The notes beneath the pieces are model-generated. The model ran no database searches. It was not told the origin of the DNA and saw only the letters and a program-made list of their open reading frames with translations. 64,000 bases of DNA, taken from assembly GCA_030584065.1 (NCBI GenBank), contig CP129489.1, positions 504,797 through 568,796 on the forward strand, given 5' to 3'. The translations under genes and the position numbers were made by a program. The stretch comes from Flavobacteriales bacterium. Its GTDB lineage: Bacteria; Bacteroidota; Bacteroidia; Flavobacteriales_F; PHOS-HE28. Shown piece after piece: positions 13,995 to 62,685 of this stretch. Every line of letters starts with the position of its first letter. Positions within the stretch are counted from its first letter, which is position 1.

Positions 13995-14029
13995 GACCTG
14001 AACCCGCCCCCATCACCAACATACCATCC

Positions 14030-16024: not shown

Positions 16025-16050
16025 ACCAACCCGGACGTTCCTCCGGTGAA

Positions 16051-16091
16051 CAGCGGCACGGCCCCGGCATCGCGCCGGGGCCGTGCCGCTG
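16051..16091 (+). terminator. 18-bp perfect hairpin between nosZ and the accessory genes
   Basis: CAGCGGCACGGCCCCGGC (16051-16068) pairs perfectly with 16074-16091 across the 5-base loop ATCGC. No T-tract follows. Lying 26 bases after the nosZ stop and 14 bases before the next start, it more likely reduces transcription into the downstream genes or protects the nosZ mRNA 3' end than ends the operon completely. Confidence 0.75.
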
Positions 16092-16104
16092 AAGGAGGGC
16101 GCCC

Positions 16105-17168: not shown

Positions 17169-18460
17169 TGCGGAAGCTGCTGTTGCTCCTGGCGGTACTG
17201 GCCCTTTCGGTGCCCTTGAAAGCGCGCACCTGGCTGCATCGCGGAGGCGGCAGCCCCACGCTGAAAAGCCTGCTGGCCGGCGCATCGCCCGGTGACACCA
17301 TCATCATCGATGGCACCGTGGCGGAAGGCGCCCTGGTCATCGACAAGCGACTGGTATTGCTGGGCCGTGCCGGTGCGGTGATCGATGGCCTGAGCGAGAA
17401 CGATGCCCTTCTGGTGAAGGCCGACAGCGTGGAAGTGCGCGGGCTCATCTTCCGCAACCCTCGGCGCAGCAACCTCGACGACATGGCCGCGCTCAAGGTG
17501 ACCAACTGCACGGGCGCCCGCATCATGGACAACCGGTTCGATCATTGCTTCTTCGCCATCTACCTCAGCGGCGCGAAGGGCGCCCTGGTGGAGGGCAACA
17601 TCGTACTGGGCCGCCCCGGCGAGGAGGAGTCCATGGCCAACGGCATCCACCTGTGGAAGTGCAGCGGGGCCACCATCCGCAACAACCGCGTGGAGCACCA
17701 CCGTGACGGCATCTACTTCGAGTTCGTCACCGGCTCCACGATCGAGCGCAACACCACGCGCCACAACCTCCGCTATGGGCTGCACTTCATGTTCAGCAAT
17801 AACGATGCATACACGGACAACCACTTCGAGAGCAACGGCGCCGGGGTGGCGGTGATGTTCAGCAAGGAGATCGTGATGAAGCGCAACCGCTTCCTGGCCA
17901 ATCGGGGCGCCAGCGCCTACGGGCTGCTGCTGAAGGAGATCAACGACGGGGAGATCGAGGGCAATCTCTTCACCGACAACACCACGGGCATCATGGTGGA
18001 CGGCTGCAACCGTCTGCAGGTGCGCTCCAACCTCTTCCTCACCAACGGCTGGGCGCTGCGGTTGTTCGCCAATGCGACCGCCTGCCATTTCACCGGGAAC
18101 TCATTCGCCGGCAACACCTTCGACATGAGCACCAACGGGTCGATCATGCTGAATACGCTCGAGGGCAACTACTGGGACCGCTACACCGGTTACGACCTGG
18201 ACCGTGATGGGACGGGCGATGTGCCTCACCGGCCGCTGGGCTTCTTCGCCCTGCTCGTGGAGCGGCAGCCCTACGCCATGGTGTTCTCGCGGAGCCTCTT
18301 CGTATCGCTCCTTGACCGGGCGGAGCGCCTGCTGCCGTCCCTCACCCCCGAGGCCATGAAGGATGACCGCCCCTTGATGCGGCCGCCCACGCCCCTTCTT
18401 TCCGGCGATGCCCGTGCTGGCCGCGGGGCCCCAGTTCCTATCCTTGCCGGTCATGGGTGA
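17168..18460 (+). CDS. nosD: NosD periplasmic copper-processing protein
   Basis: 430 residues with a signal peptide (LLLLLAVLALSVPLKA) and a long right-handed beta-helix of repeats such as NRFDHCFFAIYL, NNRVEHHRDGIYF and NLFTDNTTGIMV, the CASH-domain pattern of NosD. It works with the NosFY ABC transporter in CuZ maturation. I use the ATG at 17168; the preceding GTG at 17165 is also in frame. Its last codons overlap the start of nosF by 8 bases. Confidence 0.93.
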   Translation: MRKLLLLLAVLALSVPLKARTWLHRGGGSPTLKSLLAGASPGDTIIIDGTVAEGALVIDKRLVLLGRAGAVIDGLSENDALLVKADSVEVRGLIFRNPRRSNLDDMAALKVTNCTGARIMDNRFDHCFFAIYLSGAKGALVEGNIVLGRPGEEESMANGIHLWKCSGATIRNNRVEHHRDGIYFEFVTGSTIERNTTRHNLRYGLHFMFSNNDAYTDNHFESNGAGVAVMFSKEIVMKRNRFLANRGASAYGLLLKEINDGEIEGNLFTDNTTGIMVDGCNRLQVRSNLFLTNGWALRLFANATACHFTGNSFAGNTFDMSTNGSIMLNTLEGNYWDRYTGYDLDRDGTGDVPHRPLGFFALLVERQPYAMVFSRSLFVSLLDRAERLLPSLTPEAMKDDRPLMRPPTPLLSGDARAGRGAPVPILAGHG

Positions 18461-19217
18461 AGAGCGCATCACCTGCTCCGGCATCGGCAAGCGCTATGGC
18501 CGCCTTTGGGCCCTGCGCAACGTGGACCTCTCCTTCCAGGCCGGCGAGGTGGTCATGCTCATCGGCCCCAACGCCAGCGGCAAGACCACGCTGATCAAAT
18601 GCCTGCTCGGCCTGGTGCACCCCACCGAGGGGCGGCTCACCGTGGAAGGCACCGTGATCGACGCGCGAGGCCGTTCGCCGCATCCGGCGTACAGGAGCAG
18701 CATCGGGTACATGCCGCAGATCTCGCAGTTCCCGCCTTCCCTCACCATTGAGCAGCTGTTCGCGATGATGGCCGATGTTCGCGGATTGGCCCCGGAGCGG
18801 CTGGACGACCGGCTCATCGCCGAGTTGGGGCTCGATGCGCAGCTGGACAAGCGGCTTTCCGCCCTGAGCGGCGGAACACGCCAGAAGGTGAGCGCCGTGC
18901 TGGCCTTCCGGGCCCGCCCATCCATCCTGGTGATGGATGAGCCGACCGCCGGCCTCGACCCTGTGAGCGCGGCCAGGGTGCTGAAGGAAGCCGGTGCGCT
19001 CCGCGATCGCGGAGGCACCGTGCTCATCACTTCGCACCTCATGGAGGAGGTGGAGGCCCTGGCCGACCGGGTGGCCTATCTCGAGGATGGGCGCCTGCGC
19101 TTCCTGCTCCCTGTGCAGGCCATCCTGCAACGCACGGGAGCGCAACGGCTGTCGCAGGGCCTGCCTAGGCTGCTGGAAGAAATGAACACCGGGCGGCTCG
19201 CCCAAGTGAATCCCTGA
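18453..19217 (+). CDS. nosF: NosF ABC transporter ATP-binding protein
   Basis: 254 residues from ATG 18453 (MGEERITCSG), overlapping nosD. It has Walker A GPNASGKTT, signature LSGGTRQKV, Walker B ILVMDEPTAGLD and the switch His in LITSHLMEE. Forms the ATPase of the NosDFY complex that supplies sulfur or copper handling for nitrous oxide reductase. A longer frame beginning at 18408 adds 15 residues overlapping nosD and is not needed. Confidence 0.93.
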   Translation: MGEERITCSGIGKRYGRLWALRNVDLSFQAGEVVMLIGPNASGKTTLIKCLLGLVHPTEGRLTVEGTVIDARGRSPHPAYRSSIGYMPQISQFPPSLTIEQLFAMMADVRGLAPERLDDRLIAELGLDAQLDKRLSALSGGTRQKVSAVLAFRARPSILVMDEPTAGLDPVSAARVLKEAGALRDRGGTVLITSHLMEEVEALADRVAYLEDGRLRFLLPVQAILQRTGAQRLSQGLPRLLEEMNTGRLAQVNP

Positions 19218-19223
19218 CCGGCG

Positions 19224-19991
19224 ATGGGCAAGGTCTACAAGTACACATTGATCGACCTGGCGCGGAACCGGTTCGTAATGGGCTATGCACTGCTGCTGCT
19301 CGCCCTTTCACAGGGGCTCTTCGTCCTGGAGGACGATCCCATGAAGGCCATGCTGAGCCTGGTGCAGGTGGTGCTCGTGCTCGTTCCGCTCATCGCCCTG
19401 ATCTTCACGGTGGTCTACCTCTACGACATCCAGGAGTTCACGCAGCTGCTCGCGGTGCAGCCCATCGGCCGCAAGGCCATCCTGGCCGGCCAGCTGATGG
19501 CCTTGGCCACGGCATTGCTGCTGGCGCAGGGCTTCGGACTGGGGCTCCCCTTGCTGGTGAATGCGCCCGGGCCGTCGGCCGTGGTCCTTTCGCTGGCGGG
19601 CTCGGCGCTTGTGCTCGTCTTCGCCGCGCTGGGAGCGCTCATCGCCCTCAGGCAGCGCGAGAAGGCCCGGGGGGTGGGCCTGGCGCTTGTCCTCTGGCTC
19701 GGATTCGTGCTGGTCTACGATGCGGTGCTGATGTGGCTGATGTTCGTCACCAGCGAATACCCCATCGAGCCCTTCGTCGTTCCGCTCGCAGCGCTCAATC
19801 CCGTCGATCTGGCGCGCATCATGGTGATGCTGGAGATCGACCTGGCGGCGATGATGGGCTACAGCGGCGCCGTGTACAAGAGCTTCTTCGGCAGCGCCGC
19901 AGGCATGGCCATGGCTGCGGCCATCCTGTCCCTATGGGTGGTCCTCCCCGCATGGGGCGGTTTCCGCGTATTCGGGAAGAAGGACCTCTAG
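19224..19991 (+). CDS. nosY: NosY ABC transporter permease
   Basis: 255 residues with six predicted membrane segments (for example FVMGYALLLLALSQGLFV, VVLVLVPLIALIFTVVYLY and GLALVLWLGFVLVYDAVL). This is the usual size for NosY, which pairs with NosF. It follows nosF by six bases and ends five bases before the next, disrupted gene. Confidence 0.9.
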   Translation: MGKVYKYTLIDLARNRFVMGYALLLLALSQGLFVLEDDPMKAMLSLVQVVLVLVPLIALIFTVVYLYDIQEFTQLLAVQPIGRKAILAGQLMALATALLLAQGFGLGLPLLVNAPGPSAVVLSLAGSALVLVFAALGALIALRQREKARGVGLALVLWLGFVLVYDAVLMWLMFVTSEYPIEPFVVPLAALNPVDLARIMVMLEIDLAAMMGYSGAVYKSFFGSAAGMAMAAAILSLWVVLPAWGGFRVFGKKDL

Positions 19992-24059: not shown

Positions 24060-24455
24060 ATGTGGAAGCGTCATGTCCTCATCGGTCTGCTCGTCGCCTA
24101 TGGCGCCGGGTCATGGTTCGCCTACCAGGGCAGCGGGCGGAGCGACATCGCTGGCGCGGAGGTCCGGTCCGGGATGCGGGTGTGGCAGGAGAGCAACTGC
24201 GTGGGCTGCCACCAGCTCTACGGGCTCGGTGGATACATGGGCCCGGACCTTACCAATGCGCACGGCGACCAAGGCCCCGAGCGCATACGGACCTTCGTCC
24301 GCTACGGCACCGGGCGAATGCCGGCGCATGACCTCGATGACCGTGAGCTGGATGACCTGGTCGCCTTCCTGGCCTGGGTGGACCGGTCGGGCCGCAGCCG
24401 CGTCCCGGCTGAGGCGGTGCATTGGACGGGCACCTATATCCTGGAGCCGCGATGA
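24060..24455 (+). CDS. norC: Nitric oxide reductase cytochrome c subunit
   Basis: 131 residues: one N-terminal membrane anchor (HVLIGLLVAYGAGSWFAY), then a cytochrome c domain with the haem motif CVGCHQLYG and the axial Met in TGRMPAHD. Receives electrons in the periplasm and passes them to NorB. Overlaps norB by 4 bases (ATGA). Confidence 0.93.
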   Translation: MWKRHVLIGLLVAYGAGSWFAYQGSGRSDIAGAEVRSGMRVWQESNCVGCHQLYGLGGYMGPDLTNAHGDQGPERIRTFVRYGTGRMPAHDLDDRELDDLVAFLAWVDRSGRSRVPAEAVHWTGTYILEPR

Positions 24456-25818
24456 CGGGCGTTGTCCGCTGGCATGTCACGCTCGCCCTGGCGATGCTCC
24501 TTGTGGCGCTCGTGCTCGGGGTGGTGGCCGCGCTCGCTTACCTGTCGCCTGAGGCGGCTGCTGTGCTGCCGTTCCAGCAATTACGGCCGATGCATGTGTC
24601 AGCGGCGCTGTTCTGGATCATCACCGGTGCGTCAGCCGTGGTGATGCGCTTCAAGGACGATGCTTTCGGAGCTGCGCGGTCCACGGCACTGCACACGGCC
24701 TTCCTGGTCGTCTGGTCGGTGTCGCTCGTGCTGGTCTTCGGCTCCTACGGCGCCATGCGCTTCGGCGGGCGCGAGTACTGGGAGTTCCCGCCGGTGATCG
24801 CTCTCCCGCTCCTGGGGGCCTGGCTGTTGCTGCTCCTGGACTACATGCGGAGCTGGTACCGACGTGATTCCGATCCGCCGCTCTACGTATGGATGTGGAC
24901 CACGGGAGTGGTGTTCTTCCTAATCACCTTCGTGGAGCAGAATCTCTGGCAGATCCCCTGGTTCAGGGAGAATTACATGCGTGAGCTCATCGTGCAATGG
25001 AAGTCCAACGGCGCCATGGTGGGCGCCTGGAACCAGATGATCTACGGCACGGCGCTCTACCTGATGGTGCGCATCAGCGGGGATGAGGGCCTGGCGCGTG
25101 GCCCGCGGGCCTTCGCCTTCTGGTTCCTCGGTCTCTCGAACCTCATGTTCAACTGGGGCCATCATCTCTACAACGCGCCCACGGCCTCGTGGATACGACA
25201 CCTGGCCTATGGGATCAGCATGGCGGAATGGGTCCTGCTCATCGGCATCGTGCGGGGGTTCCGCGCCAAGCTGGCCGAGCGCGGCCGCTTTGGGCACCGG
25301 GTCGCCTATCGCTTCCTGTTCGCGGCGGAGGTGTGGGTGTTCCTCAACCTCTTCCTCGCGCTCCTCATGTCGATTCCCGCGATCAACCGCTACACGCACG
25401 GCACGCACATCACTGTGGCGCATGCCATGGGAGCGACCATCGGCATCAATACCATGATCCTGCTGGGCGCGCTGGCCCACCTGCTGCATGCCGGCGTCAG
25501 AGGGGTTGGGGAGCGATGGATCGACCTCGGACGCCGGTTGGCCATGGGCAGCCTGCTCATCTTCTGGCTGGCGCTGCTCGCGACAGGGGCCATCAAGGGC
25601 TGGCGATCCACGGCGTTGGGCATCACCGATCACCAAGCGCTGATGCAGCCGCTGCAGCCGCTGCTCATTGCCTTCGCCGTGGCGGGTGTGGGCGTGATGA
25701 CCGGCTTGGGTGCCGTGGCCGTGGCCTTGCTCCGCGCGGCCTGGTCGCCACGCCTCCTCCAGAGCGCTCAGCATGAACCCCTCGTGCAGGGGGCGGCCCG
25801 CACAGGGGAATCAAGGCC

Positions 25819-25822
<4 letters not shown>
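24452..25822 (+). CDS. norB: Nitric oxide reductase catalytic subunit
   Basis: 456 residues, about twelve membrane helices. Reduces NO to N2O at a haem b3/non-haem iron centre. It shows the FeB histidine pair in NWGHHLYNAP, further ligands in THGTHITVAHAMG and HVSAALFWI, and Glu residues of the NOR type (VEQNLWQIPW). It lacks an N-terminal quinol-oxidase extension, so it belongs to the cytochrome-c-dependent type, consistent with norC. The product N2O is the substrate of the nos operon upstream. The stop overlaps nadA by 4 bases. Confidence 0.95.
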
Positions 25823-42234: not shown

Positions 42235-43527
42235 CTACGGGAAGATGCCGCGTTCCTTGTAGGTCTTCTCCAATCGTCGCAGGGCCACGATGTAGGCGCT
42301 GTCGCGCCAGTTCACCTCGAACTCCTCGGCGGTGGTGACCACCTTGTCGAAGGCGGTGTCGATCTTGTCCTGGATCATCTCCAGCACCTGGTCGATCTTC
42401 CAGATCTCGCTGCGCTTGTTCTGGAGCCACTCGTAGTAGCTGCCGATCACGCCGCCGCTGTTGCAGAGGATGTCCGGGATGATGTCCACGCCGTTGGCGC
42501 GCAGGATGGCTTCGCCTTCGGTGTCCGTGGGCCCGTTGGCGCCTTCGGCCACCACGTTGGCCTTGATGCTTCCGGCGTTGGCCGCGGTGATCTGGTTGCC
42601 CAGGGCAGCGGGCACCACGATGTCGCAGGGCAGTCCGAAGAATTCCTCGGGTGCCATAGTGCCGGCCTTGGCGTAGCCTGAGATGCTGCGGTTGTTGGCC
42701 TCCACGTGTCGGTTCAGGTCCTCGGGGTCGATGCCGTTCACGTTGTGGATGGTGGCACTGGCGTCCTGTACGGCGATGAGCACGGCACCTTCCTCAGCCA
42801 GGAAGTGCGAGGTCCAATAGCCTACGTTGCCGAAGCCCTGCACGATGTAGCGCATGCCCTTCAGGGGCTTGCCGGTGCGCTTGGACCATGACTTGAGGGT
42901 GGCCACCACGCCGAATCCGGTGGCGCGGTCACGGCCTTCCAGTCCGCCGGCGCCCAGGGGCTTGCCGGTCACCACGTGCAGGTTGGCGAAGCGCGTGGCG
43001 GGCGACTTGGTGCTGGAGTAGGTGTCCGCGATCCAGGCCATGATCTGCGGGTTGGTGTTCACATCGGGCGCCGGGATGTCCAGGTCGGGCCCGATGTTGT
43101 CGCCCAGCGCATAGGTGAAGCGGCGGGTGATGCGCTCCAGCTCGCCCTGCGAGTAGAGCTTGGGATTGATCTCCACGCCGCCCTTGCCGCCGCCATAGGG
43201 CAGTCCGGCGAGCGCGGTCTTCCAGGTCATCCAGATGGCCAGGGCGCGGGCGGAGTCGATGTCCACGGTCTGGTGGTAGCGCAGGCCGCCCTTGTAGGGC
43301 CCGAGCGCGTTGTTGTGCTGCACGCGGTAGCCGGTGAAGACCTCGATGGAGCCGTCGTCCAGCTTCACGGGGAAGTGGACCACGATCTCGCTGTTGGTCT
43401 TGGCCAGGATCTTCCGCACGCCGGGGTCCAGGCCCATGATGTCGGCCGCACGTTCGAACTGGTCCATGACCACCTTGTACATGCCTTGCCGTTGCTCGGC
43501 TTTCTTTTCCATCGTCGGAGTATGCAT
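42235..43527 (-). CDS. gdhA: Glutamate dehydrogenase, copy 1
   Basis: 430 residues. Interconverts glutamate and 2-oxoglutarate plus ammonia. Catalytic lysine region LPYGGGKGGVEINP, substrate-binding YHQTVDIDSARALA-type segment, and the dinucleotide-binding VQGFGNVGYWTS. It differs from copy 2 (61393-62685) at five residues only: positions 2 and 3 plus S/A, E/G and D/E further on. A shorter start at 43512 (MEKKAEQ) is possible. 22 bases after the small Cys-rich gene and 1 base before pntAA. Confidence 0.96.
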   Translation of the reverse strand: MHTPTMEKKAEQRQGMYKVVMDQFERAADIMGLDPGVRKILAKTNSEIVVHFPVKLDDGSIEVFTGYRVQHNNALGPYKGGLRYHQTVDIDSARALAIWMTWKTALAGLPYGGGKGGVEINPKLYSQGELERITRRFTYALGDNIGPDLDIPAPDVNTNPQIMAWIADTYSSTKSPATRFANLHVVTGKPLGAGGLEGRDRATGFGVVATLKSWSKRTGKPLKGMRYIVQGFGNVGYWTSHFLAEEGAVLIAVQDASATIHNVNGIDPEDLNRHVEANNRSISGYAKAGTMAPEEFFGLPCDIVVPAALGNQITAANAGSIKANVVAEGANGPTDTEGEAILRANGVDIIPDILCNSGGVIGSYYEWLQNKRSEIWKIDQVLEMIQDKIDTAFDKVVTTAEEFEVNWRDSAYIVALRRLEKTYKERGIFP

Positions 43528-44403: not shown

Positions 44404-44832
44404 TTACGTCTCGGCCAGCAACCCGTGCAACCGGTCGATCCGTTCCAGCTGCTCCTCCGTGGCCACGGCCTGGATGCGGGGGAAGAGCACGCGCTCCTCG
44501 AAACGGATGTGCGCTTCCAGCTCATCCTCGATCCGGGAGAGGTCGCGCAACGGGTCGTCCGATGAAAGGAAGAGGCGCGTGAGCCTGCGGTGCTCGCTGA
44601 TGGCGCGCTTCACCAGGGGGTCGCCCGCGCCCAGTACCGGGAACACGGCCTCCTCCTCGATGGCGAAGTGGGGCAGGAGATGGCGGTGGTAGAACGCCAC
44701 GCTGCTCTGCATCTGCGCGACGGGGTCGCGCGCTTCGGCCAGGGCACGCCGGATCTGCCAGCAGAAGAGGAGCCCCTCATGGTGCTCCCGGCTCACCGGC
44801 CGCAGCAGGGCGTGCCGTTCAAGCGGTGGCAT
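44404..44832 (-). CDS. Hemerythrin HHE-domain protein
   Basis: 142 residues from ATG 44832, overlapping the end of ric by 14 bases. Di-iron-type His and Glu residues in VSREHHEGLLF, HRHLLPHFAIEEEAVFP, SEHRRLTRLF and HIRFEERVLFP form the four-helix hemerythrin pattern. It probably binds O2 or NO or helps repair iron centres with Ric. Confidence 0.88.
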   Translation of the reverse strand: MPPLERHALLRPVSREHHEGLLFCWQIRRALAEARDPVAQMQSSVAFYHRHLLPHFAIEEEAVFPVLGAGDPLVKRAISEHRRLTRLFLSSDDPLRDLSRIEDELEAHIRFEERVLFPRIQAVATEEQLERIDRLHGLLAET

Positions 44833-45559
44833 GGCGCAGTTCCTTCTCCAGCGCCTTGGCGCGCGGGAAGAGGATGTTGTTCTCCAGGTGGATGTGGCGG
44901 TGCAGGTCCTCCTCGAACTCGCGCAGCATGGCGTAGGCCGTGCCATAGGTCGTGCAGCCGTCGGGCGGGTTGGTGTAGTTGCCGCTCAGTTCGGCGATGC
45001 GGCGGAAGCGCTCACCCTCGGCGTCGTGCTCGTGCTCCATCATGGTGATGGGGTTCTCCACGGTGCCGAAATGCGGGGTGGGGGCGGGCAGGTCGTGCAG
45101 CCGGGCCTTCTCCAGTTGGTTGATGAAGGGGAAGAGGACCAGCTCCTCCTTCTTCATATGGGCGGCCATGGCCTGGGCGCAGGCGTGGAATTCCTCGCGG
45201 ATGGCGAAGAGCTCCGGGTGGCGGTCCCCATGCACGGTGCAGAGCTTGTTGAGGAATTGCATCAGGGTGGTGGAGCGGGACTCCACGTAGCGGTGATGCA
45301 CGCGCTCGATGTGCTCGATCAAGCGGCTCAGGGGCCATTGCTTCACATCGTCCGCCGTGCCGCCATCGCGTTCAATGGCCTGGCGGATCTCGGCCTCCAA
45401 GGTGTCCGGTTCAATGGCCTTGGCCCGGCATACCTCGGCAATGGTGCGGCCACCCTTGCAGCAGAAGTCGATGCCATGGGCGTTGAAGACGGCGGCGGTG
45501 CGGTAGTCATCGGCCACGATGGAGCCGACGGTCCGGTCGAGGGTGAAGGGGATCGACAT
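44819..45559 (-). CDS. ric: Iron-sulfur cluster repair di-iron protein (Ric/ScdA/YtfE)
   Basis: 246 residues. N-terminal ScdA domain with the Cys pair in HGIDFCCKGGRTIAEVC, followed by a hemerythrin-like domain (HIERVHHRYVE, CAQAMAAHMKKEELVLFP, MEHEHDAEGERF and LHRHIHLENNILFP). Repairs Fe-S clusters damaged by NO or peroxide. Preceded by its own dyad promoter, with a 24-base predicted leader; hemerythrin follows in the same operon. Confidence 0.93.
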   Translation of the reverse strand: MSIPFTLDRTVGSIVADDYRTAAVFNAHGIDFCCKGGRTIAEVCRAKAIEPDTLEAEIRQAIERDGGTADDVKQWPLSRLIEHIERVHHRYVESRSTTLMQFLNKLCTVHGDRHPELFAIREEFHACAQAMAAHMKKEELVLFPFINQLEKARLHDLPAPTPHFGTVENPITMMEHEHDAEGERFRRIAELSGNYTNPPDGCTTYGTAYAMLREFEEDLHRHIHLENNILFPRAKALEKELRHATA

Positions 45560-45587
45560 GGTGTTCAGGTGCTTTCAGGTGTGACGC

Positions 45588-45630
45588 AAAGAAAAGGACA
45601 ATAATGTCCGTAAATGAATGACCTGTGTCA
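45588..45630 (-). promoter_or_regulatory. CRP/FNR-type dyad and -7 element upstream of ric
   Basis: TGACCTGTGTCA (45619-45630) fits TGAY-N4-RTCA. On the minus strand TTTCTTTG lies at 45595-45588. Centre to last G is 36.5 bases, as for nos and nrdJ. The dyad overlaps the stop codon of the upstream membrane-protein gene, so ric can be induced separately from the oxidase cluster. Confidence 0.62.
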
Positions 45631-46074
45631 TCCTTGCACGGTGGTGACACGGACCAGCCGGGTGCCGAGGATGACCAGTGCGGCCACCTTCACCACCTCG
45701 CCGACCACGTAGAGGAGATGCAGGTGCGACGGGCCCGGCAGGTGACCATGGATGGCGAGCAGTGCACGTTCATCGAGCGCCGGCAGCAGCCAGAGGCTTT
45801 GGATGAAGAGGATGAGCACGGGCAGCACGATGAGCCCGCGGGGAGGCCAGGCCACCCTGCGCCACAGCAGGTCGGCGAGCACGGCCACGGCCAGCGCCCA
45901 TTCCACCCGGTTCAAGGCCTGGAACACGAGCCGCCCGATGCCCAGACCGATCGGCAGGGTGACGCCGTAGGCGCGGAACTTCAGCCAGGCCTCCATGAAG
46001 CTGATGGCGCACACGAAGCCCACCCACACGAAGGCGCAGATGAGCGCGATGGGGTGGTGCAGCCGGTAGTTCAC
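45628..46074 (-). CDS. Four-helix membrane protein of the oxidase cluster
   Basis: 148 residues from a GTG at 46074 overlapping the globin stop (a longer frame begins upstream but is coded inside the globin gene). Four hydrophobic segments: IALICAFVWVGFVCAI, a second near residues 45-65, LIVLPVLILFIQSLWLL and YVVGEVVKVAALVIL. Conserved His near the membrane (HGHLPGPSHLHLLY). Function unknown; position suggests a role in respiration or haem handling. Confidence 0.65.
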   Translation of the reverse strand: MNYRLHHPIALICAFVWVGFVCAISFMEAWLKFRAYGVTLPIGLGIGRLVFQALNRVEWALAVAVLADLLWRRVAWPPRGLIVLPVLILFIQSLWLLPALDERALLAIHGHLPGPSHLHLLYVVGEVVKVAALVILGTRLVRVTTVQG

Positions 46075-46472
46075 TGGATGAAGTCCTGCGGACGCGTCCG
46101 GTACCGCTCGATGCGCTCCTGGAACATGTCCGCCATGCGGTCGGCGTTGCGGTGGGCCAGTTGTGCCACGGGACCTTCGAAGAGCTCGTCCACCGTGGCA
46201 TGGAAGAGTTGCAGCCACCGCCCGAAATGCGCCGCACCGATCGGCATGTCCAGGTGGGGCCGCAACGGGGTGCCCGTGTACGATCCCTCGTTGATCAGTA
46301 CGGTGCCCCAAAAGCGGTGCATCTTCTCCAGGTGCTCGGGCCAGCGGTCGCCGATGATGCCGTTGAAGATGGCCCCGAGCAGGTCGTCGTTGCGGACCTT
46401 GCCATAGAAGGTGTCCACCAACAGCACGATGTGATCGTGGTGCCGGATGTCAGCGCGCGGTGCGGGTGTCAT
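46071..46472 (-). CDS. Group III truncated haemoglobin
   Basis: 133 residues from ATG 46472. Globin-like 2/2 fold with distal region LVDTFYGKVRNDDLL and proximal His in GAAHFGRWLQLFHATVDE, typical of group III. Probably handles NO or O2 near the oxidase. Overlaps the genes on both sides by 2 to 4 bases. Confidence 0.88.
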   Translation of the reverse strand: MTPAPRADIRHHDHIVLLVDTFYGKVRNDDLLGAIFNGIIGDRWPEHLEKMHRFWGTVLINEGSYTGTPLRPHLDMPIGAAHFGRWLQLFHATVDELFEGPVAQLAHRNADRMADMFQERIERYRTRPQDFIQ

Positions 46473-46882
46473 GCTGCGGGCGGCACGTGCCAGTATTGGA
46501 TGAAGTAGAACAGGGCGAAGCCGAGGAAGGTGATGAGCAGGGCCCACACCCAGGCGGGGATGCCCTTGGGCGTTTCCGAGCCGGTGACCAGGAACCGATC
46601 GGCGCGCTCGCTGCCATAGGCGTTGATGGTGATGGGCATGCGGCCGTCCACCACGTCGCCATCATCGAGGCCCACCACGGCGATGTCCGGACCATTGCGA
46701 ACCTCGAAGGGCACATGGCGCACCCCTTCCACGCCGCTGGTGGAGCGCGCCACCACACGCAGGATATGCGGTCCGTCGGGTAGTCGGGTGGTGTCCAGCA
46801 CGAACTTCACCGGCGGCTCGAACTCGGCGAAAGGCTCCCGGTCATCATCGATGTAGAGGCGGACAAGGCGTTCAGGTTCCAT
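46469..46882 (-). CDS. Tail-anchored protein of the oxidase cluster
   Basis: 137 residues from ATG 46882. A soluble beta-rich N-terminal part with strands such as FVLDTTRLPDGPHILRVVA, suggesting an Ig-like domain, and one C-terminal membrane helix (WALLITFLGFALFYFIQYW). Probably periplasmic and assembled with the cbb3 complex. No catalytic motif. Overlaps the next upstream gene by 11 bases. Confidence 0.6.
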   Translation of the reverse strand: MEPERLVRLYIDDDREPFAEFEPPVKFVLDTTRLPDGPHILRVVARSTSGVEGVRHVPFEVRNGPDIAVVGLDDGDVVDGRMPITINAYGSERADRFLVTGSETPKGIPAWVWALLITFLGFALFYFIQYWHVPPAA

Positions 46883-47147
46883 GGGGAATGGATGGGTCGT
46901 GGAGGATGATGCGCTTGATGTGCCCGTCATGCCCTTCCCCCGGCCTCAGCAGCATGCGCAGGGCGAGGACCAGGGTGATGGTCACGATGCCCCCAGCGCC
47001 CCACACGATGACCAGGTCCCACTGGCTCTGGGGGCCCGTGCCATGGGTGATGCCGCGCAGCGGGGCGGGTTGGTTCTTCTGGCACACATCGCAGGCCCAC
47101 ACGGCCACGCCGGTGGCGGAGAACAGGAATGTGAGGAGCGCGCGCAT
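46872..47147 (-). CDS. Small two-helix membrane protein of the oxidase cluster
   Basis: 91 residues: N-terminal hydrophobic segment (LLTFLFSATGVAVWA), a CDVCQKNQP motif with two Cys facing the periplasm, and a second helix (LVIVWGAGGIVTITLVLAL). The Cys pair suggests metal or haem binding. Function unknown. Its start shares one base with the stop of the cytochrome gene. Confidence 0.6.
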   Translation of the reverse strand: MRALLTFLFSATGVAVWACDVCQKNQPAPLRGITHGTGPQSQWDLVIVWGAGGIVTITLVLALRMLLRPGEGHDGHIKRIILHDPSIPHGT

Positions 47148-48160
47148 CAGGGCATCAGGGTGGTGGCCGGTGCCACCGTGGAGCGCACGGCGCGGACGGC
47201 ATCGGTGGTAGTGGCGGGCGCCTCGTTGCCGAAGGCACTGCGCAGGTAGTTGGCGATGGCCGCGACCTCCGCGTCCGACAATCGCTCGGCCTGCGCGGGC
47301 ATCACGCCGTACTCCGCCCGCGCATCATAGCCACCGAGGATGATCGAGAGCATCAGGGTGGGATCGGGGTCGTTCACCACCGGGCTGCCGGCCAGGGGAG
47401 GGAAGGCACCCGCCAGACCCTTGCCTTCCGCGCCATGGCAGGCGGAGCAGGTCTGCACGAAGAGGTCGGCGCCGTTGGGTAGGTCGCCGGCGCTTGGCTT
47501 TGCTTCCGCCTCGCTGCGCGCCCCTGGCGAGGGCAGGAAGACCGGATCAGCACCGCCGGGCAGGGGCGCTTGCTTCAGGGTGAGCAGGTAGGCCACCAGG
47601 TCCTGTGCGCGCTGGGAGGCCACCAGCACCTTGTTGCTGTCGCGCAGGCGTTCCTTGGGCACCGGCACCACCACCGCATCCTCCGCGGGCGTGTCGGTCT
47701 CCTCGAAGAGCCAGGGGTAGCGCGGCATGATGGAACCCTTCACCACCATGCGCGGATCATAGAGGTGCAGTAAGTGCCATTGCGCACCGGGCTGTCGCCG
47801 GCCAGTGTTGGTGAGGTCCGGACCGGTGCGCTCACTGCCCAGCAGGGAGGGCGATTGCCGCCACACGTCCAGGCGCTGCTTGCTGTAGTGGTAGTCGCTG
47901 GGGATGCTCGGCCGCTCGCCCCACATGCGGTCCATCTCAATGTTGCGCACCTGTTGCGTGTGGCAGGCGGCGCAGCCTTCGGCCACGTATACTTCCAGCC
48001 CACGTCGTTCGCTCGCCGTCATCGGCGGCAGGTCCGGCAGGGGCGCGTTGTTCAGGGCCAGTTCGTTGGCGGGGATCACGGCCACGCCCATGCTCAGCAG
48101 CACGAACACCACGAGCGCGACATTGACCAGGTTCTGGTGGTCCTTGTGGAAGTTGAGCAT
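47147..48160 (-). CDS. ccoO: cbb3-type oxidase cytochrome subunit, CcoO fused to a second cytochrome c domain
   Basis: 337 residues. One N-terminal membrane helix (LVNVALVVFVLLSMGVAVI), a CcoO-type domain with haem motif CAACHTQQVRNIE and Met in SIMPRYPWL, and a second cytochrome c domain with CSACHGAEG and GVMPAQA. Thus CcoO and CcoP-like functions are combined in one chain. Passes electrons to CcoN. Confidence 0.88.
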   Translation of the reverse strand: MLNFHKDHQNLVNVALVVFVLLSMGVAVIPANELALNNAPLPDLPPMTASERRGLEVYVAEGCAACHTQQVRNIEMDRMWGERPSIPSDYHYSKQRLDVWRQSPSLLGSERTGPDLTNTGRRQPGAQWHLLHLYDPRMVVKGSIMPRYPWLFEETDTPAEDAVVVPVPKERLRDSNKVLVASQRAQDLVAYLLTLKQAPLPGGADPVFLPSPGARSEAEAKPSAGDLPNGADLFVQTCSACHGAEGKGLAGAFPPLAGSPVVNDPDPTLMLSIILGGYDARAEYGVMPAQAERLSDAEVAAIANYLRSAFGNEAPATTTDAVRAVRSTVAPATTLMP

Positions 48161-48164
48161 GGCG

Positions 48165-49868
48165 TCAGGCGATGGTGGGAGTGGGGGTCGCTGAGGTTGC
48201 CGTGTTCGCCGCGGGTCGGCGTACCATGGTGATGAAGTTCCAGGCGAAGAGCAGATGCGAGACGAACATCAGGGAACCACCGATGGCGCGCCAGATCCAG
48301 TAGGGCCGTGAGCCGATCACCCCATCGATGAAGGGGCGGCCCTCCAGCCATTGCAGCCCTTTGAAGGTGCCGCCGGCCATCATGCTGATCATGTAGGCGA
48401 AGAGGCCGATGAAGGCCAGCCAGAAGTGGGCGCCCACCAGCAGCTGCGCCGGTTCGCGCCCCGTGAGCCGCGGCACGATGGCGTACATGCAGGCCCACAG
48501 CGCGAAGGTGATGATGCCGTACATGGTCATGTGCGAGTGCGCCACGTTGAAGTCCGTGAAGTGCCAGAGGTGGTTGGTGAAGCGGAAGGCCTGGAAGCTG
48601 CCCTGCGTGCTGCCCACGAAGTAGAAGACCACGGCCACCAGGAAGAAGGGCAGCACGTAGCTGCGGCCGATCGCAGACCAGCTGCCGCGCATGGTCATCA
48701 GGAAGTTGGTGGTGCCCGCCACCACGGGGATGAACATGCCCGCGCTGAACACGATGGCCACCGTCTGCAGCCACCACGGCAGCGGCGCGAACACGAAGTG
48801 GTGCGTGCCGATGAGGGTGTAGAAGAGCATCTGCGTCCAGAAGGCCAGCACGCCGAGGGAGTAGGAGTAGATGGGCCTGTTGAACGCCGAGGGCAGGTAG
48901 TAGTAGAGCAGGCCGAGGGTGAAGGTCATGAACCACATGCCCACGCCCTGGTGCATGTAGTAGCCCTGGATCACGGTCTCGCCCAGGCCGTCCTGGTACC
49001 AGGGCAGGTAGCCGATGGTCACCAGTACGAGAGTCCAGACGAGCGCGGCCAGCATGTACCAGTTGCTGATGTAGATCTCGCCGATGGTGCGGCGCTTCAC
49101 CGTGCCATAGAAGTTGCGGAAGGTGAGGAAGAGCCCCCAGGCGAAGGGCAGCACGGCCGGCCAGATGTACTCGCGGTACTCGCCGCCGCCGTTGTTGATG
49201 CCGGCCATCAGGAAGAGGTTGCCGGAGAGGATGCCCAGGTTCATCCAACCCAGCGCGCGCCAGCCGCGGCGCAGGCTGGGGATGGCTGCGGCCGAGGTGC
49301 GCGCCACCACGAAGTAGCCCAGCCCGATCATGGCCAGCGAGGCCCAACCCCAGAACACGGTGTTGGTGTGCACCGGTCGCAGGCGGCCGAACGACAGCCA
49401 GGACTGCTGGTCCATGTCGGGCCACACGAACTTCATGCCCACGTACTGGCCGATCAGGGTGCCGATCACCAGCCAGCTCACCGCACAGCCCAGGTACCAC
49501 ACGATCATCCGGCGCAGGCCGGGCTGCACCTCCAGCACCATTTCCTGGGACTTCTTCTCATCCACCAAGGGGTTGTCGGGTTCGTTGCTGTAGGTGCTCA
49601 CCAGGCCGCGCTCGCCGAGCCGGGCCATCGCGCCGTCCCCGGCACCCTTGCGGCGAAGTGAACGCAGCAACCGGTCCACCTTCGCGCTCACCACCAGGGC
49701 GGCCACCAGAAGTACGATGCCCAGAAGCACCAGGGTGCCCACCACCCCCGGGCTGGAGAGCCAGCCAGCGGTGCCGCTTTGTGCAAGGAGCGGCGTGGGG
49801 GCGATCATGGCCATGCCCACCGCCAGCGGGGTGGCCTTGGACCGGAGCGGGAACGTGCGATGATGCAT
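48165..49868 (-). CDS. ccoN: cbb3-type cytochrome c oxidase subunit I
   Basis: 567 residues, about fourteen hydrophobic segments including an N-terminal extra helix. The CuB His is in YYMHQGVGMWF and the His pair in IGTHHFVFAPLP. The C-type catalytic Tyr falls 44 residues after the first His (MLFYTLIG), exactly as in known cbb3 oxidases, and haem ligands are in FNVAHSHMTMYG. The conserved Tyr argues for an oxygen reductase rather than a NO reductase. First gene of a cluster of six. High-affinity O2 respiration is the expected role. Confidence 0.92.
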   Translation of the reverse strand: MHHRTFPLRSKATPLAVGMAMIAPTPLLAQSGTAGWLSSPGVVGTLVLLGIVLLVAALVVSAKVDRLLRSLRRKGAGDGAMARLGERGLVSTYSNEPDNPLVDEKKSQEMVLEVQPGLRRMIVWYLGCAVSWLVIGTLIGQYVGMKFVWPDMDQQSWLSFGRLRPVHTNTVFWGWASLAMIGLGYFVVARTSAAAIPSLRRGWRALGWMNLGILSGNLFLMAGINNGGGEYREYIWPAVLPFAWGLFLTFRNFYGTVKRRTIGEIYISNWYMLAALVWTLVLVTIGYLPWYQDGLGETVIQGYYMHQGVGMWFMTFTLGLLYYYLPSAFNRPIYSYSLGVLAFWTQMLFYTLIGTHHFVFAPLPWWLQTVAIVFSAGMFIPVVAGTTNFLMTMRGSWSAIGRSYVLPFFLVAVVFYFVGSTQGSFQAFRFTNHLWHFTDFNVAHSHMTMYGIITFALWACMYAIVPRLTGREPAQLLVGAHFWLAFIGLFAYMISMMAGGTFKGLQWLEGRPFIDGVIGSRPYWIWRAIGGSLMFVSHLLFAWNFITMVRRPAANTATSATPTPTIA

Positions 49869-49915
49869 GACGGCAGCTATGGTTCGGGAAGGGAGGCTTG
49901 AGGGTTAGAACTGGA

Positions 49916-49923
49916 CAAAAGTA
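49916..49923 (-). promoter_or_regulatory. -7 element upstream of ccoN
   Basis: On the minus strand TACTTTTG is a full TAnnTTTG match, 48 bases before the start codon. Surrounding sequence is AT-rich (49918-49965), unlike the rest of the window. No TGAY-N4-RTCA dyad is found at the matching position, so the oxidase appears to be regulated differently. Confidence 0.55.
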
Positions 49924-50002
49924 TCCATAAAATAGAATAACAGATAAAATGGTCGATAATTAGACTGTGCTCGGATTCCGGCGCTACCGCGGGGAGGCCG
50001 GC

Positions 50003-50566: not shown

Positions 50567-50607
50567 TGATGGTCGTCATGCGAGGTCCCGATGGCAACGG
50601 ACAGTTT
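50567..50607 (+). promoter_or_regulatory. CRP/FNR-type dyad and -7 element upstream of tnaA
   Basis: TGATGGTCGTCA (50567-50578) fits TGAY-N4-RTCA. CAGTTTTG lies at 50600-50607. Centre to last G is 34.5 bases, two short of the usual 36.5, so this is the weakest of the seven. The -7 region also sits in a small palindrome, GGACA-N4-TGTCC (50597-50610). Confidence 0.45.
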
Positions 50608-50644
50608 TGTCCACTTCGGCCCGACAATCAGGCCCTGCAACCTC

Positions 50645-52018
50645 ATGAAGCACCGCACCATCATCGAACCCTTCCGCATCAAGAGCGTGGAACCCATCGG
50701 CCTCAGCACGGAGGCGGAACGCGTGGAGTATCTCAAGGAGGCCCACTACAATCCGTTCCTGCTCCGGTCGCGTGATGTGATCATCGACCTGATGACCGAC
50801 AGCGGCACCAGCGCCATGAGCGCGCACCAATGGGCGGGCATGATGGAGGGCGACGAGGCCTACGCCGGTTCGCGCAGCTGGGAGCGCATGCTCGCCGAGG
50901 TGCAGGACCTCACCGGCATGGAGCATGTGCTGCCCACCCACCAGGGCCGCGCCGCCGAACGCATCCTCTACGGCCATTTGGGCGGTCCGGGCAAGGTCTT
51001 CATCAGCAACACCCACTTCGACACCACCCGCGCCAACATCGAGTTCACCGGTGCCACCGCCATCGACATCCCCATTGCCGAAGGCCGCGACCCTGCTCTC
51101 ATGCATCCCTTCAAGGGGAACATGGACGTGGCCGAGCTGGACCATCTGCTCAAGGAGCACAAGGGCAACGTGGGCGCCGTCATCCTCACCGTCACCAACA
51201 ACAGCGGCGGCGGACAACCGGTGAGCCTGGCCAATGCCGAGGGCGTGGCCGCCATCTGCAAACGCCACGGGGTACCCTTCCTGCTCGATTGCTGCCGCAT
51301 CGCGGAGAATAGCTGGTTCATCAAGGACCGCGAGGAGGGCATGGAGGGCTTGTCCTACCGCCAGATCGCGCAACGGCTGTTCGCCCTGGCCGATGGGGCC
51401 ATCATGAGCGCCAAGAAGGATGCGCTGGTGAACATGGGCGGCTTCCTCTCCGTGCGTGATGCAGCGCTGGCCGAGGCCTGCATCAACCTGCTCATCATCA
51501 CCGAGGGCTTCACCACCTACGGCGGCCTCAGCGGGCGTGACATGGAGGCCATCGCCATCGGCCTGCAGGAGGTCTTCGATCCCCACTACCTGGACTACCG
51601 CATCAAGAGCACCACCTTCGTGGGCCGCAAGCTGCATGAACTGGGCGTTCCGCTGATGCGTCCCATCGGGGGCCATGCGGTGTACATCGATGCCAAGGCG
51701 CTCTATCCGCACATCCCGCCGGACCAGTACCCCGGGCAGGCGCTGGTGTGCGAGCTCTACCGGCTGGGCGGCATCCGCAGCGTGGAGATCGGCTCGGTCA
51801 TGTTCGGCACCTACCTGCCCGATGGCTCGCTGAAGCCCTCACCCATGGAGCTGGTGCGCCTGGCCATCCCGCGCCGCGTGTACACCCAGAGCCACATGGA
51901 GTACGTGGCCGAGACCTTCGAGGAGATCATGCGCACGCGCGAGCAGGTGCGCGGCTACCGCATCATCAAGGAGCCGCGTTTCCTACGGCACTTCACGGCG
52001 CATTTCGAGGAGATATAG
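50645..52018 (+). CDS. tnaA: Tryptophanase
   Basis: 457 residues from ATG 50645 (MKHRTIIEPFRIKSVEP); an earlier in-frame start at 50591 overlaps the promoter. PLP-dependent conversion of L-tryptophan to indole, pyruvate and ammonia. The PLP lysine is in [14 protein letters not shown] near residue 257. The region GGIRSVEIGSVMFGTYLPDG has the hydrophobic residue expected in tryptophanase where the lyase at 30338 has Arg. A truncated relative of its C-terminal third is at 60276-60720. Confidence 0.93.
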   Translation: MKHRTIIEPFRIKSVEPIGLSTEAERVEYLKEAHYNPFLLRSRDVIIDLMTDSGTSAMSAHQWAGMMEGDEAYAGSRSWERMLAEVQDLTGMEHVLPTHQGRAAERILYGHLGGPGKVFISNTHFDTTRANIEFTGATAIDIPIAEGRDPALMHPFKGNMDVAELDHLLKEHKGNVGAVILTVTNNSGGGQPVSLANAEGVAAICKRHGVPFLLDCCRIAENSWFIKDREEGMEGLSYRQIAQRLFALADGAIMSAKKDALVNMGGFLSVRDAALAEACINLLIITEGFTTYGGLSGRDMEAIAIGLQEVFDPHYLDYRIKSTTFVGRKLHELGVPLMRPIGGHAVYIDAKALYPHIPPDQYPGQALVCELYRLGGIRSVEIGSVMFGTYLPDGSLKPSPMELVRLAIPRRVYTQSHMEYVAETFEEIMRTREQVRGYRIIKEPRFLRHFTAHFEEI

Positions 52019-60275: not shown

Positions 60276-60720
60276 CCCACTGCCTGGACTACCGCAACCA
60301 CAGCACCACTTGGCAGGGCGAGCAGTTGCTTCCATGGGGGTACCGCCATTTCGCTCCGCAGCGGGCCATGCGGTGTACATCGATGCCAAGTCCCTCTATC
60401 CGCACATCCCGCCGCAGCAGTATCCCGGCCAGGCGCTCGTGTGCGAGCTCTACCGCCTGGGCGGCATCCGCAGCGTGGAGATCGGCTCTGTCATGTTCGG
60501 CACCTATCTCCCCGATGGTTCACTGAAGCCCTCGCCCATGGAACTGGTGCGCCTGGCCATCCCGCGCCGCGTGTACACCCAAAGCCACATGGAATACGTG
60601 GCCGAGACCTTCGAGGAGATCATGCGCACCCGCGGGCAGGTGAGGGGCTACCGCATCATCAGGGAGCCGCGTTTCCTCAGGCACTTCACCGCGCATTTCG
60701 AGCGCATCGAGCAGGCCTGA
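60276..60720 (+). pseudogene. Truncated tryptophanase (C-terminal remnant)
   Basis: Matches tnaA (50645-52018) from about its residue 315 to the end. The first 80 bases are recognisable (CACTGCCTGGACTACCGCA against CACTACCTGGACTACCGCA) but scrambled and frame-broken. From 60367 on the match is close (GHAVYIDAKSLYPHIPP, GGIRSVEIGSVMFGTYLPDG), ending FERIEQA. It lacks the whole N-terminal part including the PLP lysine, so it cannot be an active lyase. Differences from tnaA are mostly synonymous, so the source was a functional, somewhat diverged gene rather than a fresh copy. Confidence 0.88.
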
Positions 60721-61392: not shown

Positions 61393-62685
61393 TTAGGGGA
61401 AGATGCCACGTTCCTTGTAGGTCTTCTCCAGTCGTCGCAGGGCCACGATGTAGGCGCTGTCGCGCCAGTTCACTTCGAACTCCTCGGCGGTGGTGACCAC
61501 CTTGTCGAAGGCGGTGTCGATCTTCTCCTGGATCATCTCCAGCACCTGGTCGATCTTCCAGATCTCGCTGCGCTTGTTCTGGAGCCACTCGTAGTAGCTG
61601 CCGATCACGCCGCCGCTGTTGCAGAGGATGTCGGGGATGATGTCCACGCCGTTGGCGCGCAGGATGGCCTCGCCCTCGGTGTCCGTGGGCCCGTTGGCGC
61701 CTTCGGCCACCACGTTGGCCTTGATGCTTCCGGCGTTGGCCGCGGTGATCTGGTTGCCGAGCGCGGCGGGCACCACGATGTCGCAGGGCAGGCCGAAGAA
61801 CTCTCCGGGTGCCATGGTGCCGGCCTTGGCGTAACCGGCGATGCTGCGGTTGTTGGCCTCCACGTGTCGGTTCAGGTCCTCGGGGTCGATGCCGTTCACG
61901 TTGTGGATGGTGGCACTGGCGTCCTGTACGGCGATGAGCACGGCACCTTCCTCAGCCAGGAAGTGCGAGGTCCAATAGCCTACGTTGCCGAAGCCCTGCA
62001 CGATGTAGCGCATGCCCTTCAGGGGCTTGCCGGTGCGCTTGGACCATGACTTGAGGGTGGCCACCACGCCGAATCCGGTGGCGCGGTCACGGCCTTCCAG
62101 TCCGCCGGCGCCCAGGGGCTTGCCGGTCACCACGTGCAGGTTGGCGAAGCGCGTGGCGGGCGACTTGGTGCTGGAGTAGGTGTCCGCGATCCAGGCCATG
62201 ATCTGCGGGTTGGTGTTCACATCGGGCGCCGGGATGTCCAGGTCGGGCCCGATGTTGTCGCCCAGCGCATAGGTGAAGCGGCGGGTGATGCGCTCCAGCT
62301 CGCCCTGCGAGTAGAGCTTGGGATTGATCTCCACGCCGCCCTTGCCGCCGCCATAGGGCAGTCCGGCGAGCGCGGTCTTCCAGGTCATCCAGATGGCCAG
62401 GGCGCGGGCGGAGTCGATGTCCACGGTCTGGTGGTAGCGCAGGCCGCCCTTGTAGGGCCCGAGCGCGTTGTTGTGCTGCACGCGGTAGCCGGTGAAGACC
62501 TCGATGGAGCCGTCGTCCAGCTTCACGGGGAAGTGGACCACGATCTCGCTGTTGGTCTTGGCCAGGATCTTCCGCACGCCGGGGTCCAGGCCCATGATGT
62601 CGGCCGCACGTTCGAACTGGTCCATGACCACCTTGTACATGCCTTGCCGTTGCTCGGCTTTCTTTTCCATCGTCGGGGATTGCAT
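61393..62685 (-). CDS. Glutamate dehydrogenase, copy 2
   Basis: 430 residues, 425 identical to copy 1 at 42235-43527. Catalytic GGGKGG and dinucleotide VQGFGNVGYW are intact. DNA identity is very high over the coding region and drops sharply outside it. Such identity between copies with diverged flanking genes points to recent duplication or gene conversion. Unlike copy 1 no transhydrogenase follows; the GreA-like gene comes directly after. Confidence 0.95.
   Translation of the reverse strand: MQSPTMEKKAEQRQGMYKVVMDQFERAADIMGLDPGVRKILAKTNSEIVVHFPVKLDDGSIEVFTGYRVQHNNALGPYKGGLRYHQTVDIDSARALAIWMTWKTALAGLPYGGGKGGVEINPKLYSQGELERITRRFTYALGDNIGPDLDIPAPDVNTNPQIMAWIADTYSSTKSPATRFANLHVVTGKPLGAGGLEGRDRATGFGVVATLKSWSKRTGKPLKGMRYIVQGFGNVGYWTSHFLAEEGAVLIAVQDASATIHNVNGIDPEDLNRHVEANNRSIAGYAKAGTMAPGEFFGLPCDIVVPAALGNQITAANAGSIKANVVAEGANGPTDTEGEAILRANGVDIIPDILCNSGGVIGSYYEWLQNKRSEIWKIDQVLEMIQEKIDTAFDKVVTTAEEFEVNWRDSAYIVALRRLEKTYKERGIFP

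Follow-up and report, generated by a model that had tools for sequence, protein, structure and literature searches.

What does a haem-copper enzyme reduce when it is encoded among proteins that handle nitric oxide (NO)? The question is raised by a cluster of nine minus-strand genes in a Flavobacteriales bacterium (GCA_030584065.1, contig CP129489.1, positions 504,797-568,796; these 64,000 nt are referred to as the window), which runs from rrf2, encoding an Rrf2-family regulator, through ccoN, ccoO, sm91, tail137, a globin gene, 4TM and ric to a hemerythrin gene, where sm91, tail137 and 4TM are our names for three small proteins (Table 1). A sequence-only reading had described a cbb3-type oxidase unit for respiring O2 in the presence of NO. 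The genes that it described are all present on the minus strand, at the coordinates of Table 1, although the cluster starts one gene earlier than it had proposed, at the Rrf2 regulator. We tentatively propose, with a little less than even confidence, that the cluster encodes a NO-regulated, cytochrome c-dependent enzyme of a separate C-family branch, which would mainly reduce NO or act on both NO and O2.

The catalytic subunit and its conserved company

CcoN matches PF00115 (E 6e-76) and PDB chain 3mk7_A (E 2e-58), which we take to be the cbb3 oxidase of P. stutzeri. Against the curated ccoN model TIGR00780 it scores 232.6 bits, far under the cut-off of 583.15, and it is therefore classed by its sequence as a C-family protein but not as a standard CcoN. 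Eight family members form one clade in a small tree of 25 rows (support 100/100). Their sisters in it are the plasmid-borne CcoN relatives of Proteobacteria, a placing with weak support (80/74) that was flagged as a long-branch join. We place the enzyme on a separate branch of the C-family haem-copper enzymes.

Residues were compared between 81 family members and 25 canonical CcoNO proteins (that of the same genome and 24 from other Bacteroidota; L156 misaligned), using P. stutzeri numbering. The catalytic Tyr of C-type enzymes, which the sequence-only reading had recognized in CcoN, aligns with Y251 of 3mk7_A. All 81 members keep R57, H60, E122, E125, H207, Y237, Y251, H257, H258, N289, Y317, H345 and H347, so that the metal and haem ligands and Tyr-II (H60, H207, Y251, H257, H258, H345 and H347) are intact throughout. 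Equally invariant are the replacements T215M, S240G, H243A, S283V, T321S and E323Q; five PDB CcoN chains, read by eye, are canonical at T215, S240, H243 and E323. Five of the replaced residues (T215, S240, H243, S283 and E323) are polar residues that we take to belong to the canonical K-channel. A passage in PMC3084760 describes the C-type K-channel as Tyr-II, a Ser and a Tyr only. The active site thus reads as oxidase-like, and the cytoplasmic proton route as altered, lost or rebuilt.

Canonical cbb3 oxidases (CcoNOP/CcoNO; 3mk7, 9g6b and the CcoNO of the same genome, L082/L169) share with the cluster enzyme the fold family, the haem and CuB ligands, Tyr-II, the R57/E122/E125 cavity and a mono-haem CcoO. 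Unlike them, the cluster enzyme carries the five K-channel replacements and the low ccoN score, is accompanied by the two clade-specific small proteins sm91 and tail137, and has no di-haem CcoP relative nearby; its CcoO carries one additional, fused cytochrome c domain. This fusion, already noted in the sequence-only reading, is borne out by Pfam, which assigns FixO to residues 10-155 and a second cytochrome c domain to residues 229-308. The proteobacterial plasmid relatives (L165-L168; Azoarcus KH32C, Paraburkholderia aromaticivorans, Cupriavidus metallidurans and Paracoccus versutus), which encode CcoN, CcoO and a cytochrome c, are 33-35% identical in CcoN and share E323Q, S283V and the loss of H243, but retain T215 and S240. 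In the two that are annotated, a separate cytochrome c gene lies behind CcoO and no NO gene is evident by product name; SCO, MsrAB or P-type ATPase genes are their neighbours.

The nine window proteins were compared by phmmer with the open reading frames (ORFs) up to 10 kb on each side of the best 80 of 361 CcoN relatives found in a scan of genome contigs. All 80 locus titles are Bacteroidota or genera known to us as Bacteroidota, and cultured carriers among them include strains of Gelidibacter, Arenibacter, Bizionia and Pricia. Relatives of the fused ccoO, sm91 and tail137 each occur in 78 loci, followed by rrf2 (63), the globin (52), ric (42), the hemerythrin (34) and 4TM (31). In 78/80 loci the stretch of 3 kb behind ccoN contains the fused ccoO, sm91 and tail137 together, so that their company is not due to chance; the exceptions are a contig that ends just after ccoN (L010) and a ccoN that stands alone, with a convergent gene behind it (L007). 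The three unknown membrane proteins of the sequence-only reading thus part ways, since sm91 and tail137 belong to related clusters almost without fail and 4TM is optional. Directly upstream of ccoN stands an rrf2 relative in 62 loci, and directly behind tail137 a globin gene in 50. Within 7 kb behind ccoN are found the globin (51 loci), ric (37), the hemerythrin (32) and 4TM (31), with ric or the hemerythrin in 50. A hexameric tyrosine-coordinated haem protein (HTHP) of about 78 residues, identified from the one member tested (PF11534, E 1e-34), is encoded near the ccoO-sm91 gap in 32 loci.

The canonical CcoNO locus of the same genome (L169) has CcoP-, CcoG-, CcoH-, CcoS- and CcoI-like neighbours, named by eye. 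Between 3 kb upstream and 7 kb downstream of the cluster ccoN, no relative of its CcoP-, CcoG-, CcoH- or CcoS-like proteins was found in any of the 80 loci (phmmer, E<=1e-5 for CcoP), and a CcoI-like relative was found in L007 only.

Denitrification genes and the regulator

In a draw of 295 genomes of the class, with tail137 as marker, 13 carriers were found, six of them from the genus of the window and including its own genome. NosZ was matched in 11/13 carriers and in 83/282 other genomes (Fisher p 9e-5); outside the genus of the window the figures are 5/7 and 80/277 (p 0.027). A further 44 distinct carrier genomes were obtained through the loci (49 of the 80 chosen with isolates preferred, 47 obtained, three repeats of the class draw), giving 57 in all, of which 48 have nosZ, 33 nirK and 27 both. 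NirS was matched in 0/57 carriers, and likewise in none of the controls. Where both coordinates are known, nosZ is no more than 20 kb away from the cluster in 9/39 genomes and nirK in 4/25; a qNOR-like gene, that is, one for a protein resembling a nitric oxide reductase (NOR), lies within 4 kb in four (G308, G309, G317 and G337).

In 17 of the 27 carriers with both NirK and NosZ, the matches listed at E<=1e-8 comprise exactly three COX1-family proteins. An aa3 oxidase and a CcoNO are named for each of these 17 among the same matches, in which the entry of the cluster family itself is missing for some. With two of the three accounted for in this way, the third must be the cluster CcoN, and the 17 carriers therefore hold no NOR-type haem-copper enzyme. 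Genomes of this kind (G302, G304, G314, G323, G324 and G327) include those of the cultured isolates Pricia antarctica, Arenibacter certesii, Gelidibacter gilvus, G. pelagius, G. maritimus and Bizionia myxarmorum. The search does find NORs, with scores of 205-219 bits for cNOR, 150-213 for qNOR-like proteins and 89-94 for the NorB-like protein of the window; classes were assigned by motif in six cNORs and three qNOR-like proteins, all of which carry the NOR motif, and by length and score in the rest. The remaining ten carriers have four or more COX1-family proteins, the extra enzyme being NorB-like in G002 and a cNOR, a qNOR-like protein or a further haem-copper type in the other nine. Among the matches listed for all 57 carriers, aa3 is present in 55 and canonical CcoNO in 54.

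An earlier NOR count, made with the NorB-like protein of the window as query, was dropped because this query missed true cNORs; its counts therefore serve that subfamily only, and NOR absence is taken from the COX1-family counts.

The Rrf2 protein, probably the repressor of the cluster, falls below the equivalog cut-offs of both NsrR (35.7 bits, cut-off 182) and IscR. A palindrome, GGAYAnnnnTRTCC, that had escaped the sequence-only reading is found ahead of rrf2, of ccoN and of ric in the window and is probably the Rrf2 operator; we infer that the regulator binds it and responds to NO. The strict palindrome with one mismatch allowed occurs six times in the window, against a chance mean of 2.25, and 4/100 shuffles reach six. 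Exact copies of GGAYANNNNTRTCC between -300 and +60 were found at 24/63 rrf2 starts and 11/79 ccoN starts (Markov shuffles, mean 0.0 each), at 4/37 ric starts (shuffles 0.0) and at 1/34 hemerythrin starts (shuffles 0.2), and at none of the ccoO, sm91, tail137, globin or 4TM starts in the 80 loci; the common full form is TTCGGATAAATTTGTCCGAA. Automatic labels place 40 of the 55 exact sites in these loci before cluster genes and 15 elsewhere. The genome of 3.9 Mb has ten exact GGAYANNNNTRTCC sites (control pattern, two), three of them at the cluster, including 50599..50612; around the others no evident link to NO genes was seen when the surrounding ORFs were judged by eye. In 14 loci with other haem-copper enzymes, NORs included, the exact core is absent. 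NsrR- and IscR-type regulons likewise combine an Rrf2-family protein with palindromic operators and ric-type targets; the cluster differs from them in its regulator scores and in its operator.

Four of the 15 off-cluster sites precede cupin-like genes, judged by eye, in the Gelidibacter loci L036, L054, L056 and L059. The operator of rrf2 (50599-50612) lies in a divergent gap before a tryptophanase-like gene (50591-52018; probable start 50645), which may therefore share its regulation.

The sequence-only reading had placed ric and the hemerythrin behind a promoter of NO/anaerobic type. The two genes do adjoin, whereas this promoter was not confirmed, the palindrome being found in its place and no scan for FNR sites having been made. 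An interpretation in which the operator overlies a -7 box (TAnnTTTG) was also dropped: 31/75 sites hold TAnnTTTG in register, and TTG stands 18-23 nt upstream in 0/31 of these, compared with about 11% of shuffles.

NO reduction or O2 respiration

That the cluster deals with NO, as the sequence-only reading had it, is supported by the Rrf2 protein and its palindrome, by ric, the hemerythrin, the globin and the HTHP-like protein, by the nearby qNOR-like genes and by the association with nosZ; O2 respiration despite NO, the other half of that reading, may still describe the enzyme. Passages of PMC3431322 state that the protons of cNOR come from the periplasm, that cbb3 likewise draws on this side for protons during NO reduction, that R57, E122 and E125 form a cavity common to cbb3 and cNOR, and that cbb3 reduces NO faster than ba3, with none reduced by aa3. 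With this cavity kept and the cytoplasmic side changed, CcoN looks as expected for a C-family enzyme shifted towards NO reduction. It shares with cNOR and qNOR the haem-copper superfamily, the periplasmic cavity and the NO setting, and with cNOR a cytochrome c donor. Because aa3 and CcoNO are mostly present, several residues that we take to line the K-channel are replaced and 17 carriers with NirK and NosZ lack a NOR-type haem-copper enzyme, NO reduction is at least an equal reading.

Under the NO-reducing proposal, the Rrf2 repressor, by analogy an iron-sulfur NO sensor, would leave the GGAYAnnnnTRTCC operators upon NO, and rrf2, ccoN and ric would be transcribed. From the periplasm, electrons would reach haem b and b3/CuB by way of both cytochrome c domains of CcoO, and the main reaction there would be that of NO to nitrous oxide (N2O), with protons drawn from the periplasm through the retained R57/E122/E125 cavity; some O2 reductase activity might be kept through the retained Tyr. 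Sm91 and tail137 would be fixed extra subunits or assembly factors, perhaps replacing the helices of CcoP, CcoQ or CcoH, and the globin, HTHP, ric and the hemerythrin would bind NO or repair the damage that it causes. Where a carrier has NirK and NosZ and lacks both cNOR and qNOR, the enzyme would close the denitrification chain. The fullest version of this proposal, in which the enzyme is a NOR with an oxidase-type CuB-Tyr site that draws its protons from the periplasm, its cytoplasmic route being rebuilt or closed, that requires both new small membrane subunits and that forms the unrecognized NO-reducing step of NirK- and NosZ-bearing Bacteroidota without nor, is conceivable, and we regard it with more doubt than belief.

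A number of observations weigh against NO as the main substrate. CcoN lacks the NOR motif H-x-Arom-x-E, the family having HQGVG where cNOR has HLWVE, and all 81 members hold the cross-linked Tyr (Y251), which a passage in PMC3084760 describes as absent in NORs. The K-channel may have been rebuilt and not lost, with a new Q247 in 81/81 and Y237, N289 and Y317 kept. The association with nirK is not significant (3/13 carriers and 23/282 others in the class draw, p 0.096); 24 of the 57 carriers have no nirK match and nine no nosZ match. Several carriers also have a cNOR, a qNOR or a NorB-like protein, and the genome of the window itself has a NorB-like protein and no nirK match. The 17 genomes of the class draw with both NirK and NosZ comprise ten with a NorB-like protein (NOR status unsure), three with a true cNOR and four without a NOR-type enzyme (G154, G263, G110 and G140), and only G154 and G263 among these four carry the cluster. 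Carrier genomes are, moreover, not independent samples, and the absence of NOR refers to the haem-copper types alone, since no search for flavodiiron proteins, Hcp or Hmp was made in the nor-less genomes.

These points leave room for an O2 reductase with a modified architecture that NO induces, that sustains respiration when NO blocks aa3 and canonical cbb3, and whose accessory proteins scavenge NO and repair damage; we consider this a serious possibility, if one somewhat short of probable. The complete oxidase-type active site, including Tyr-II in all 81 members, would be explained directly, as would the NO-linked neighbours, and the solved structures matched by CcoN are cbb3 oxidases. The orphan CcoN4 isoforms of P. 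aeruginosa have higher tolerance to NO and cyanide. Such an oxidase would, however, mostly be a third O2 reductase beside aa3 and CcoNO, it leaves unexplained the 17 NOR-less carriers that have both NirK and NosZ, and invariant replacements along what we take to be the K-channel are unexpected for a proton-pumping oxidase. We therefore narrowly favour an enzyme that mainly reduces NO, or both NO and O2, over one that respires O2 despite NO.

Two further explanations carry less weight. The recurrence of one palindrome ahead of all three of rrf2, ccoN and ric in the window, and of rrf2 or ccoN across many loci, together with the association with nosZ, makes it improbable that an ordinary auxiliary high-affinity oxidase lies by chance beside nitrosative-stress genes of a separate regulon, even though the gene order behind tail137 varies, ric, the hemerythrin and the globin are absent from many loci, and exact operator cores precede few of the ccoN and ric starts. 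It is more improbable still, indeed hardly to be expected, that the complex senses or buffers NO or O2 instead of respiring, with the CxxC of sm91 and the globin as signalling parts: small proteins of no known family with an invariant CxxC would suit this idea, as would the presence of several haem proteins, but the haem and CuB ligands and the second cytochrome c domain are all kept, which points to turnover.

Passages of Graf et al. 2014 (PMC4250227) report that a third of Bacteroidetes with nirK and nosZ lack norB and attribute this to Flavobacteriales. Genomes with nir and nosZ but without nor are termed initiator-terminators in a 2025 survey that used seven NOR classes as its reference (PMC12569097); the passages concerned put them at 9% of Bacteroidota genomes with denitrification genes, and the authors of the survey suggest that such genomes depend on other organisms or on Nor-independent routes. 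The cluster is a concrete candidate for this gap in Bacteroidota, open to test in cultured carriers. If the enzyme does reduce NO, surveys limited to known nor genes would misjudge NO release and the making and consumption of N2O; whatever the enzyme reduces, a branch of the C family in which the proton route has changed and the active site is intact would help to separate O2 reductases from NO reductases. No published account of the cluster was recognized from titles and abstract openings, a search whose scope left out subscription literature such as the NOR-diversity paper of Murali et al.

Accessory proteins and other features of the window

Neither Pfam nor NCBIfam gave a match to sm91, tail137 or 4TM at E<=0.1. 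Ten residues of sm91 (C19, C22, Q26, P27, H35, G36, G38, D44, H76 and K78) are invariant in 28/28 aligned sequences, which yields the pattern CxxC...QP...H; the CxxC does not belong to a CxxCH haem motif, and a metal or redox role for it is therefore a guess. An RNGP motif is invariant in tail137 (33/33 aligned sequences), and the structural model of this protein (mean predicted local distance difference test (pLDDT) score 65) has a helix at residues 110-130, with the blocks at 111-130 above 90. A bacterial Ig-like domain, suggested by eye, was considered for tail137 and set aside, a PDB profile search giving E 0.95 and the middle of the model being poor, and we assign no fold to it; viral contigs gave no confirmed tail137 relatives. 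The 4TM model (alignment of 20 sequences, pLDDT 88) consists of four long helices, and a fold search of the PDB gave no significant match to it (best E 0.78). The globin, encoded here inside an oxidase-like cluster, finds its best PDB match in 2ig3, a group III truncated haemoglobin and presumably Ctb of Campylobacter jejuni (E 1e-19), the next matches, of HbN and GlbN types, having E 0.007 or more. Ric passes the TIGR03652 equivalog (227.6 bits, cut-off 204.7).

The genes are tightly packed. A gap of 4 bp separates ccoN from ccoO, and the order from ccoO through 4TM is overlapping, as the sequence-only reading had described for the three small proteins and the globin (1 bp between ccoO and sm91, 11 bp between sm91 and tail137, and 4 bp each between tail137 and the globin gene and between the latter and 4TM); 68 bp then separate 4TM from ric, which overlaps the hemerythrin gene by 14 bp. 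The names ccoN, ccoO, ric and rrf2 follow Pfam and NCBIfam, and those of the globin and the hemerythrin Pfam.

Table 1. Genes of the oxidase-like cluster and putative operators, in window coordinates.
Feature	Position	Strand	Basis or remark
Operator-like palindrome GGACAGTTTTGTCC	50599..50612	.	Upstream of rrf2 and of divergent tryptophanase-like gene; exact GGACANNNNTGTCC match
Rrf2-family regulator, 144 aa	50003..50437	-	PF02082 E 3e-22; TIGR00738 above cut-off
Operator-like palindrome GGACAAAAGTATCC upstream of ccoN	49913..49926	.	One mismatch to strict form; exact to GGAYANNNNTRTCC
ccoN-like catalytic subunit, 567 aa, C-family haem-copper, separate Bacteroidota branch	48165..49868	-	
ccoO-like mono-haem subunit with second cytochrome c domain, 337 aa	47147..48160	-	PF02433 and PF00034
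sm91, small membrane protein, 91 aa, no known family	46872..47147	-	Hydrophobic stretch (transmembrane helix by eye)
tail137, strand-containing domain and C-terminal helix, 137 aa, no known family	46469..46882	-	
Group III truncated haemoglobin, 133 aa	46071..46472	-	PF01152; PDB 2ig3
4TM, four-helix membrane protein, 148 aa, GTG start, no known family, optional	45628..46074	-	
Operator-like palindrome GGACAATAATGTCC upstream of ric	45596..45609	.	Exact match
ric/ScdA/YtfE-type iron-sulfur cluster repair di-iron protein, 246 aa	44819..45559	-	TIGR03652
Hemerythrin HHE-domain protein, 142 aa	44404..44832	-	PF01814 E 6e-13

The window also holds a nos cluster at 13760-19991 on the plus strand, about 33 kb from the oxidase-like cluster, in which nosZ (PF18764) is followed by nosL-, nosD-, nosF- and nosY-like genes, named by eye. 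A NorC-like cytochrome c and the NorB-like haem-copper protein are encoded at 24060-25822 (plus strand). The motif of the latter, KSNGAMVGAWNQ, is without the His and Glu of cNOR, a relative in G144 likewise lacks the usual active-site His and Glu, and neither the PDB (at E<=0.01) nor NCBIfam gave a match to the window protein; its subfamily occurs in 59/295 genomes of the class draw, and we can only guess that it is one of the newer NOR classes. True cNOR NorB genes, encoding about 450 residues, lie within about 7 kb of nirK in L125, L126, L127 and L128 (G171, G278, G221 and G320).

A 404-residue membrane protein encoded at 12167-13381 (minus strand), haem-copper- or NnrS-like by eye, has no Pfam or NCBIfam match; it is 27% identical over 362 residues (E 2e-31) to the product of L033 17534-18757, which belongs to a group found near ccoN in 10/80 loci. 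Two glutamate dehydrogenase-like genes at 42235-43527 and 61393-62685 are 98.8% identical over 430 residues, and over 133 residues a tryptophanase-like fragment (60310-60720) shares 87% identity with the gene at 50591-52018, which suggests a segmental duplication around the cluster.

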